This document shows positions 24,864 through 45,874 of a stretch of 64,000 nucleotides of DNA, one piece after another. Position numbers and translations under genes: made by a program. Under the pieces are notes generated by a model. The model did no database searches. It was not told the origin of the DNA and was given only the letters and a program-made list of their open reading frames with translations. Within the stretch, counting starts at the first letter, position 1; every line of letters starts with the position of its first letter. The stretch comes from Phyllobacterium myrsinacearum (GTDB lineage: Bacteria > Pseudomonadota > Alphaproteobacteria > Rhizobiales > Rhizobiaceae): positions 124,001 to 188,000 of the forward strand of contig NZ_JACGXN010000002.1 in assembly GCF_014138285.1 (NCBI RefSeq), written 5' to 3'.

Positions 24864-25009
24864 GCATGAGCATGGTTTGTGGTTCGACAAGCTCACCATG
24901 AGGGAGTTGGGTGGCTGCAAGGCTAATCGCGAAGATTGCAGAACTGGACACCCTGCAATCCTCGCTCTCCCTCATGGTGAGCTTGTCGAACCACAAACCA
25001 TGCTCATGC
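24864..25009. repeat. Perfect 43-bp inverted repeat, REP-like element, copy 1
   Basis: Arms at 24864-24906 and 24967-25009 are perfect reverse complements around a 60-bp centre. The core GGTTCGACAAGCTCACCATG is shared with a second copy at 36810-36948 and half copies elsewhere in the window. Elements with this core are common between genes in Rhizobiales. This one lies between the MocR gene and purL. Confidence 0.9.
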
Positions 25010-36809: not shown

Positions 36810-36948
36810 GTGGTTCGACAAGCTCACCATGAGGGAGAGTGAGGATTGCAGGGAGTTATATTCTGAACGCAGGTGATTGGCTTGTTCTGCAACGCTGACG
36901 ATTAGCATGCAGCCATCCCTCGCCCTCATGGTGAGCTTGTCGAACCAC
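36810..36948. repeat. REP-like palindrome, copy 2
   Basis: Perfect 26-bp arms at 36810-36835 and 36923-36948 share GTGGTTCGACAAGCTCACCA with the 43-bp palindrome at 24864-25009. The outer GTGCG/CGCAC also pair loosely. The centre differs in length and sequence from the other copy. Confidence 0.88.
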
Positions 36949-41877: not shown

Positions 41878-42435
41878 TCACTCATCGTCTTCAGCCTTTT
41901 CTTCCTCTTTGGCCGGTTTCCCCGGCTTTGCCAGCGCAGCACAGTTTGGCGTCGCCGATGGCAATTTCATTCCCGATTTAAGGTCGAGCACCCTACGGAA
42001 GGCGTGGGCCGGAATGCTGCCAACGATCTTCCCCGCCTTTCCTGCCAGTTCGAACTCAAAACCCTTTGATGCAGCGGCAGCAAAGTCCGCCTCGTCCATC
42101 GAGACCATGCCCGTGTCTTCACGCGTGGGCACACACGGCTGGAAGTAACAAGGTATCCGGGTGCTCAATCCCTTGGTGAATGGCAGCTGTTTCCCGTAGC
42201 TCCACGCTTCGGAAATCAGGCTTTTGCCTGGCCCGACATAGCGCGTCTTGAATCCATATCCGACCGTTGTCGAATAATAGGGCTGCACGCTCAGTGACGT
42301 GAACAGAGCGTAATAAGCCATGACACTGGGGCCGTAGGCAGTATCACTCCGCATATGGACATCTTTGACCACCGTCGACGTCTGACAGGAAGCAAGTGCC
42401 ATCGCAGTACACAAAAGAGCCGGTATAGCTTTCAC
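41878..42435 (-). CDS. Putative lipoprotein, function unknown
   Basis: A lipoprotein signal (VKAIPALLCTAMALASC) precedes a mature part of about 168 residues. Features are the tyrosine-rich AYGPSVMAYYALFTSLSVQPYY, two cysteines in IPCYFQPCVPTREDTG, and an acidic C-terminal tail KPAKEEEKAEDDE. I do not recognise a family. The start is placed at a GTG at 42435 with GAGAA close by, because it puts the signal peptide at the N-terminus; an ATG at 42486 would add 17 mostly hydrophobic residues. Confidence 0.65.
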   Translation of the reverse strand: MKAIPALLCTAMALASCQTSTVVKDVHMRSDTAYGPSVMAYYALFTSLSVQPYYSTTVGYGFKTRYVGPGKSLISEAWSYGKQLPFTKGLSTRIPCYFQPCVPTREDTGMVSMDEADFAAAASKGFEFELAGKAGKIVGSIPAHAFRRVLDLKSGMKLPSATPNCAALAKPGKPAKEEEKAEDDE

Positions 42436-42690
42436 AAGAATTCTCAAAAATAATAAGTCAAAAACACTGCTCAAAATTTCAAACAAAACGCACGCGCCAG
42501 GGACATGGAGAATAGTACCGGAAACGCGGCATATTTTAAATTCTACTATAGTTTAATTGATAGACATGACGGGCAGGTGTACAAATTACCTCAAGAAGAA
42601 CATGAGGAAATGGGGTGGCGCGGTGGAGAGCCTATTCTCACACCGGTATGTTCCAGCTGCGCCGATACGCGGCTGGAACCATATTACTGG

Positions 42691-43214
42691 AAATAGCAAG
42701 CCAATGCCTCGCGCACGCCTGCTATCGCAGCTTCACTTCTGGAGCCGTCAAATGCGCCTGCCTGCGCAGTTTCAGGACGATTGCGGGAACTCATACGGAC
42801 TGGAAACAAATGCCAGAACGGGCCGGCAAAAGCGTGGCTCGCGATGGCTACTGCGGCTTCGGCCTTGCGGCTAACAGCCACCGGTATGCCCTTCAGGATG
42901 GTCGTCGCCAGCCGCGCTTATACGCGACTGGAAAAGCGGTCCGTTGAACTAATCAGCCAAAGCGTCGCGCACCACCGTCACAGCGGCTTCGGCCTTCGAA
43001 CCATCGGGTCCGCCTGGCTGCGCATGTCAGGATGCTCACGACCAGCCGCGCTTGCACGCGACTGGAAAAGCGGTTCGTTGAACTAGTCAGCCAAAGCATC
43101 TCGCACAGCTGCCACAGCGGCTTCGGCCTTCGAGGCATCGGGCTCACCGGCCTGCGCGTGTCAGGATGATCACGACCAGCCGCGCTTGCACGCGACTAGA
43201 AAAGCGGGTCGTTG
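42691..43214 (-). repeat. Tandem degenerate copies of the alaS 3' end
   Basis: Downstream of alaS, in the same orientation, lie four units: 43081-43214 and 42947-43080 (both exactly 134 bp), about 42817-42946, and about 42691-42816. Each repeats the last 75-80 bp of alaS through the stop codon, encoding versions of [16 protein letters not shown], then a spacer with a 9-bp hairpin, CCAGTCGCG-TGCAAG-CGCGGCTGG. The two units next to alaS are close to the gene; the outer two are heavily mutated. A further hairpin remnant is at 42648-42680. Confidence 0.9.
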
Positions 43215-43216
43215 AA

Positions 43217-45874
43217 CTAGTCAGCCAAAGCGTCGCGCACCGCCGTCACAGCGGCTTCGGCCTTCGAACCATCGGGTCCGCCTGCCTGCGCCATATCGGG
43301 ACGCCCGCCACCGCCAGCACCGCCAAGCGCGGCGGAAGCGATCTTGACGAGATCGACAGCGCTGAACTTGCCGACGAGGTCATCGGTGACGCCGACAACC
43401 GCACTTGCCTTGCCGTCTTCCGAGACGCCGATGAACGTGACGACGCCCGAACCGACAGTCTTCTTGGCATCATCGGCCAGAGGCTTCAGATCGCGCGGAT
43501 TGACGCCAGTCACAACCTTGCCGATAAAGCCAACGCCATTGACAGTCTCTGATTGTGCGCCGCCATTGCTGGAACCGCCAAGCGCCAACTGTTTGCGCGC
43601 TTCGACGAGTTCGCGCTCCAGTTTGCGGCGCTCATCCAGCAACGTTGTTACACGCGACAACGCATCGGCAGGCGTGGATTTCAACGCGCTGGCAATGGCT
43701 TTGACCCGGTCATCCTGCTCTTCGAGATAGCGGCGTGCAGCTTCGCCGGTCAATGCCTCCATACGGCGGACACCGGCAGCCACGGCACTTTCCGAGACAA
43801 TCCGGATCAGGCCGATATCGCCGGTTGCGCGAACATGCGTGCCACCGCACAGTTCAGTCGAATAGCTCTTGCCCGCTTTTTCACCATGCAGCGCCGTTCC
43901 CATGGAAACAACGCGTACTTCATCGCCATATTTCTCGCCGAACAGCGCCATTGCGCCTTCAGCTATCGCGTCGTCAACCGCCATCAGACGGGTGCTGACC
44001 GGTGCGTTCTGTAATACGATCTCGTTGGCCAGATCTTCAATCACAGCCAGTTCCTTGTCCGAAATCGGCTTCGGATGCGAGAAATCGAAGCGCAACCGGT
44101 CCGGTGCGACGAGTGAACCTTTCTGGGCAACGTGCGTACCAAGTGTTTCGCGCAGCGCTTCATGCAGCAGGTGTGTCGCCGAGTGATTGGAGCGAATACG
44201 CGTCCGGCGCGCACTATCGACCACCAGCTCAACCGGCTCATCCAACTTCACGGTGCCCTTGAGAACCTTGCCAAGATGCACGAACACGCCGTCATTCTTC
44301 TTCTGTGTGTCGGTCACGACCACTGTGAAGCCGTCACCGGAAATGACGCCAGTATCACCCTGCTGGCCGCCGGATTCACCGTAGAACGGCGTCTGGTTGA
44401 CCACAATGGCAATGTTCTCGCCTTCGCCGGCGCTGTCCACCTGCGCACCGTCCCGCACGAGTGCAGTGATGACGCCTTCGGCCTTTTCGGTCTCATAACC
44501 CAGGAATTCGGTGGAACCGACCTTGTCACGCACCGAGAACCAGACGGTTTCCGTAGCCGCATCGCCGGAACCGGACCAATGGGCGCGCGCTTCCGCCTTC
44601 TGTCGTTCCATGGCGGCGGCAAAAGCGTCGGTGTCAACAGCGATGCCACGCTGACGTAGCGCATCCTGCGTCAGATCGAGCGGGAAACCGAACGTGTCAT
44701 AGAGTTTGAAAGCCGTCTCGCCATCGAGACGATCACCCTCGCCAAGACCTTCCGTTGCGTCGCTGAGCAGGCCAAGGCCGCGATCCAGCGTCTTGCGGAA
44801 GCGGGTTTCCTCGAGCTTCAGAGTTTCGGAAATCAGTGATTCAGCGCGGATCAGCTCCGGATAGGCCTGCCCCATTTCGCGGATGAGCGCCGGCAGCAGG
44901 CGCCACATCAACGGCTCCTTGGCACCCAGCAACTGCGCATGGCGCATGGCGCGGCGCATGATACGGCGCAGCACATAACCCCGGCCTTCATTCGACGGCA
45001 GCACGCCGTCGGCGATGAGGAAGCTCGATGAGCGCAGATGATCGGCAATCACCCGGTGGCTGGCCCGGAATTTACCTTCCGCCTTGACGCCGGTTGCATC
45101 TTCCGACGCGCGGATAAGCGCGCGGAACAGGTCGATATCGTAATTGTCATGCTCGCCCTGCAGCACCGCAGCCAGACGCTCCAGCCCCATGCCCGTGTCA
45201 ATCGACGGGCGTGGCAATTCAATGCGCTGTTCCTTGGTGATCTGCTCGAACTGCATGAACACGAGGTTCCAGATCTCGATAAAGCGATCGCCATCCTCAT
45301 CGGCGCTGCCGGGAGGACCACCCCAGATGTCTTCACCGTGGTCATAGAAAATTTCCGAGCACGGGCCGCACGGACCGGTGTCACCCATGGCCCAGAAGTT
45401 GTCACTGGTCGCGATACGGATAATGCGGTCATCGGACAGGCCGGCAATCTTCTTCCAGAACCCGGCGGCTGCATCATCCGTGTGATAGACGGTGACCAGC
45501 AGCTTGTTCCTGTCAAGGCCGAATTCTTTGGTGATCAGGTTCCAGGCAAGGCTGATGGCCTCTTCCTTGAAATAATCGCCAAAGGAGAAATTTCCGAGCA
45601 TTTCAAAAAAAGTATGATGGCGGGCGGTATAGCCGACATTATCCAGGTCATTGTGCTTGCCGCCTGCCCTTACGCATTTCTGCGATGTCGTGGCGCGGCT
45701 ATAGGGCCGTTGCTCCAGACCGGTGAAAACATTCTTGAACTGCACCATACCGGCATTGGTGAACATCAGCGTCGGATCATTACGCGGGACAAGCGGGCTC
45801 GACGCCACGATCTCATGGCCGTTCTTCTTGAAATAGTTCAGAAATGTCGACCGGATTTCGTTGACGCCACTCAT
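43217..45874 (-). CDS. alaS: Alanyl-tRNA synthetase
   Basis: The 885-residue enzyme charges tRNA-Ala. It has the class II core ([21 protein letters not shown] and [15 protein letters not shown]), the editing domain with zinc-type ligands in [12 protein letters not shown] and [13 protein letters not shown], and the glycine-rich C-Ala domain [19 protein letters not shown]. The ATG at 45874 gives [15 protein letters not shown] as expected. The gene's last 75-80 bp recur in tandem downstream. recA lies 0.3 kb upstream on the same strand with its own terminator in between. Confidence 0.97.

Follow-up and report, generated by a model that had tools for sequence, protein, structure and literature searches.

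Tandem, unequally decayed copies of the alaS 3' end in Phyllobacterium myrsinacearum and their probable origin by partial duplication

The array behind alaS and the make-up of its unit

The window, a stretch of 64,000 nucleotides of the P. myrsinacearum genome (G000:C2:124001-188000, G000 being this organism's own genome), carries alaS on the minus strand with its stop codon at 43217-43219, so that downstream of the gene means lower coordinates. On the 3' side of alaS, the end of the gene recurs in four copies of the same direction, two of exactly 134 bp and two that are older and damaged. They are numbered outward from the end of alaS itself, which is taken as unit 0 (U0, 43157-43290). TRF reported 42893-43291 with a period of 134 and 3.0 copies, the alaS end being one of the three, and a repeat search returned 131-nt copies at spacings of 134 and 134 and a 51-nt core at spacings of 130, 134 and 134. 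BLAST from the alaS end recovered U1 (E 2e-48), U2 (5e-50) and U4 (5e-6), and U3 by a 17-bp piece alone (E 0.003). The description in the earlier note of at least four such copies, the nearest two of exactly 134 bp, is confirmed by these searches. U1 and U2 adjoin directly and keep a register of exactly 134 bp with alaS, and a search of the whole genome with 801- and 1001-base queries matched the array at one place.

Table 1. Features of the alaS 3' region (window positions)
Feature	Position	Strand	Basis
alaS, alanyl-tRNA synthetase, 885 aa	43217..45874	-	ORF; Pfam tRNA-synt_2c, tRNA_SAD, DHHA1
Last ~96 bp of alaS, probable source of the units	about 43217-43312	-	
Hairpin of alaS itself, 3' of the stop, CTAGTCGCG / CGCGGCTGG, with two G-T pairs	43176..43199	-	same stem in 12/19 relatives
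Unit 1 (U1), 134 bp: copy of the alaS end with in-frame stop, then hairpin 43042-43065	43023..43156	-	repeat search, TRF, BLAST
Unit 2 (U2), 134 bp: coding half near-identical to alaS, spacer half diverged; hairpin 42908-42931	42889..43022	-	repeat search, TRF, BLAST
Unit 3 (U3): damaged copy, hairpin lost	42768..42888, lower limit cut-dependent	-	alignment, shuffles
Unit 4 (U4): the oldest copy, interrupted hairpin 42651-42678	42651..42767	-	BLAST, shuffles
Next gene downstream of alaS, 202 aa as listed, without Pfam family	41878..42486	-	ORF; alaS neighbour in 16/19 relatives

Aligned with U0, U1 and U2, the outer units U3 and U4 each scored above all 1000 dinucleotide shuffles. Beyond them, 42480-42624 gave no copy signal, its scores against the same three units being reached by 752, 230 and 237 of 1000 shuffles, respectively. 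Together U3 and U4 fill 42651-42888; their boundary (about 42768) and their lengths vary with the cut, U3 measuring 130 bp by one cut and about 121 bp if U4 begins at its own alignment start. Both are mutated, as had been noticed before; the lengths of about 130 and 126 bp given at that time depend on the cut, and the hairpin remnant that had been placed separately, farther out, belongs to U4.

The DNA 3' of the alaS stop was compared in 19 other genomes returned by a genus search. A stem CCAGCCG..CGGCTGG starts 13 to 25 nt from the first stop base in 12 of them, and in none of these 12 did self-comparison of the alaS end reveal an array. Because the same stem occurs in relatives without the array, the hairpin in the "spacer" of a unit is the trailing hairpin of alaS itself, native and not foreign. 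Four other relatives have a different, strong hairpin at this place (L003, L018, L020 and L021; z -3.6 to -5.8) and L019 has a weaker, GC-rich one (z -1.8); other DNA follows alaS in L004 (G015) and L006 (G008), with z values of -0.9 and -1.1. A spacer stem had been ascribed to every unit; it persists in U1, in U2 and, interrupted, in U4, and is lost in U3.

The units derive from the 3' region of alaS. The gene part had been put at the last 75-80 bp; that it was copied holds, and its extent is probably larger. When the stretch before each copy was aligned with the codons upstream of the copied part, the score was reached by 5 of 1000 shuffles at junction J2 and by 1 of 1000 at J4, where these codons are traceable, by 64 of 1000 at J1, a weak result, and by 451 of 1000 at J3, which is no signal. 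Since the stretch before two of the four copies aligns with upstream alaS codons, the gene-derived part would be nearer 96 bp, and one period is probably made up of some 96 bp from alaS and some 38 bp from the DNA that follows the gene. By the unit alignment and the junctions, U1 and U2 hold no sequence beyond alaS's own region that is left to explain.

A mobile or dispersed palindromic repeat was considered for the spacer, as the earlier note had envisaged, and rejected: the stem pattern occurs in the genome at U1 and U2 only, the spacer of alaS itself escaping the pattern by one base. The single Rfam match in 42400-43500 (19.5 bits against a cut-off of 47.9, E 0.24) was rejected as well. A plasmid collection searched in distant mode gave 10 records, each matching alaS coding DNA only.

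Divergence of the copies and their spread in the genus

Coding sequence was compared over 69 bases, with U3 excluded because of its gaps. Of these, 3 differ between alaS and U2, 11 between alaS and U1 and 24 between alaS and U4, in agreement with the earlier observation that U2 is closer to the gene than U1. At third positions U2 differs from alaS at 1, U1 at 8 and U4 at 13 of 23, with 10-16 in the 19 relatives; at first and second positions together the numbers are 2, 3 and 11 of 46, with 2-9 in the relatives. U4 has thus lost coding constraint, since its 11 first- and second-position differences compare with 2-9 in the relatives, and it is old; the coding half of U2 is young. Read as protein, U1 is still a nearly intact C-terminus with its stop. 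The differences from alaS are enriched at third positions in both U1 (8/11, p 0.009) and U4 (13/24, p 0.028). Such third-position-rich differences argue against simple decay of the copies: free decay alone does not give the excess, and change in the living gene must therefore supply part of it. We ascribe the excess to synonymous change in the living alaS. It had also suggested a foreign origin of the outer copies, which was rejected, as living-gene change accounts for it.

The gap-free alignment of U0, U1 and U2 is a mosaic. Over the coding half (74 bp) U0 and U2 agree against U1 at 11 sites and U0 and U1 against U2 at 3; over the spacer half (60 bp) the first pattern is found at 0 sites and the second at 9, with U1 and U2 agreeing at 2 sites and all three differing at another 2 (Fisher p 0.0003; best split reached by 0 of 5000 shuffles). 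The coding half of U2 follows alaS and its spacer half does not, which bears out the earlier suggestion of recombination with the gene. An age order of this kind is no plain conveyor and speaks against a simple duplication: U2 lies farther out, yet is younger in its coding half than the nearer U1, so that an exchange between alaS and U2, or an offset second duplication, is needed and, judged from the alignment, must have taken place. No site of the U0/U1/U2 alignment reveals the direction of the exchange.

In 16 of the 19 relatives the 202-aa downstream gene is recognisable at most 1.5 kb from alaS, weakly so in L018; within that distance it was not found in L011, L019 and L021. The match begins 162-373 nt past the alaS stop in 14 of the 19, at 734 nt in the window and at about 1.1 kb in L004 and L006. 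The gap that the array occupies is thus short in most relatives. In L004 and L006 the interval from the alaS stop to the downstream gene is enlarged by about 1 kb of related DNA, which most relatives lack.

For the self-comparison, 100 alaS ends were assembled from the window, 19 genus loci and 80 named loci, and all 100 anchors were checked; 99 are distinct, L028 and L008 being apparently one contig. At E up to 1e-5 the gene end is repeated only in the window and in L004, and copies are thus absent from 18 of the 19 genus relatives. In L100 the repeated part is 26 bp of downstream DNA, without the gene end, and 24 further rows hold weaker matches (E 2e-4 to 0.03, 12-28 bp) that were taken as chance. 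The two copies in L004 lie 121 bp apart and comprise the last ~24 bp of its alaS with its own downstream DNA, an independent event different from that in the window. Alignment of relatives' alaS 3' ends, proposed in the earlier note, yielded both the native hairpin (12/19) and the absence of copies (18/19). The AlaRS C-terminal peptide varies little across the genus. The alaS query also gave 30-base matches elsewhere in four relatives (L022-L025).

Origin of the array

Partial tandem gene duplication followed by decay arises by slippage, by microhomology-mediated events or by unequal exchange. The array very probably stems from such a duplication of the gene end, repeated over a long time and followed by decay and exchange, an option already listed in the earlier note and now supported. 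The copies lie head to tail and adjoin their source gene, the whole unit can be drawn from the source locus (the native hairpin, with two of four junctions traceable, one weak and one absent), and relatives with conserved neighbours lack it, apart from the different duplication of G015. An intact gene, copies of unequal age and exchange between copies are likewise shared with partial tandem duplications. Unlike the usual case, several rounds would have occurred at one place over a long time, with a living gene taking part in the exchange. A tandem array of fixed period in an intergenic gap also resembles a minisatellite or VNTR, but each unit here consists of the end of a gene together with its stop and hairpin, and strong divergence marks the outer copies.

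As to route and breakpoints, we infer a head-to-tail duplication of one segment, which comprised the final ~96 bp of alaS together with the next ~38 bp and reached as far as the distal arm of the gene's own hairpin. alaS would have been left intact, the first copy keeping the full end and the second being free to decay. Further rounds by slippage or unequal exchange, easier given two copies, would have led to units of unequal age, and a later exchange, presumably from gene to copy, would have refreshed the coding half of U2. Against this reading stand the one junction of four without a trace of upstream codons and the age of U4, which appears about as old as the species splits of the genus, yet is kept by no other relative.

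Integrative elements, for example those at icd, restore the 3' end of the gene they enter and leave a displaced second copy downstream. The array could accordingly consist of scars of repeated integration by a mobile element whose attachment site was the 3' end of alaS, each insertion restoring that end and pushing the old one outward before the element was lost. The displaced gene ends with stop and hairpin resemble what such elements carry, and outer copies that differ from alaS with a third-position excess would also fit. The short gap in 14 of the 19 relatives, however, leaves no room for an element, and U1 and U2 keep an exact 134-bp register without sequence foreign to the alaS region. 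The four copies of fixed period adjoin with nothing between them, and a Pfam scan that covered four proteins of the window (alaS, icd and two lacking a family) gave no integrase. The integration site suggested in the earlier note finds no support in these data, and its chances are even slimmer than those of the extra hairpins considered next.

Additional alaS hairpins may have been kept by selection as multiple terminators that insulate the downstream gene from alaS transcription, and the stems that persist in U1, U2 and U4, together with a hairpin behind alaS in much of the genus, agree with this. The stem of U3 is lost, however, and the youngest units would keep theirs anyway. Folded as 70-nt stretches, alaS, U1 and U2 exceed shuffles in stability only slightly (z -1.0 to -1.5; U4 -2.6). 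No T run follows the hairpin in the window, and we therefore do not call it a proven terminator. With copies also lacking in nearly all relatives, we regard selection for terminators as very improbable. The earlier note had further proposed that the copies are donors for variation of the AlaRS C-terminus, in which case they would act by gene conversion. Either an exchange of U2 with the gene or an offset duplication took place, and U1 still reads as a nearly intact C-terminus; the peptide is nevertheless alike across the genus, relatives other than G015 lack copies, and no site indicates transfer from copy to gene. The proposal is thus unsupported and has next to no chance of being correct.

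The array is uncommon but mechanistically ordinary, with no new element or mechanism needed. Its copies of graded age show clearly how intergenic DNA can grow from a gene's own end, and how a gene can exchange sequence with dead copies of itself. No description of an alaS-end array was found among the titles searched, and one may still be in print. A more far-reaching reading, which we consider rather unlikely, is that the genus has a duplication hot spot at the 3' end of alaS, where the hairpin and Gly-rich codons would promote recurrent capture of the end of this essential gene, in two species independently, with continuing exchange between gene and dead copies. Were it a true hot spot, it would offer a small model for hairpin-linked duplication.

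Close direct repeats elsewhere

The hot-spot reading is weakened by the finding that close repeats outside reading frames are not rare in G015. In 800 kb of that genome 13 close-repeat loci were found, 7 of them not inside one frame: by eye, these are the alaS end, two sets of genes that seem to be paralogous, two loci that contain a dispersed repeat, one duplication with a 194-bp offset and one uncharacterised locus. The offset duplication is direct and lies at G015:C15:481737-482060, in the gap upstream of a gene that by eye is gltX-like.

In the P. myrsinacearum genome the scan covered 1.99 of 5.97 Mb, namely contig C2 in full, 1.42 of the 1.93 Mb of contig C1 and none of the 38 remaining contigs. 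It returned 16 close direct-repeat loci, 13 of them within one open frame; the other 3 comprise the array, a tRNA-Pro gene with a partial copy, and a large repetitive region that overlaps with a long reading frame. A second array of the alaS-end kind outside reading frames was absent from these 1.99 Mb. The partial copy of the tRNA-Pro (ggg) gene lies about 109 bp from it and matches it over 36 bp at 86% identity (L140:932-1096, G000:C1 60932-61096).

Elsewhere in the window, at 24881-24992 and 36812-36946, there are two pairs of inverted GGTTCGACAAGCTCACCATGA copies, 91 and 114 bp apart from start to start. The pairs are exact matches, and none is expected by chance. Among the repeats of G015 are reading frames with a peptide motif like that of the GGTTCGACAAGCTCACCATGA regions.
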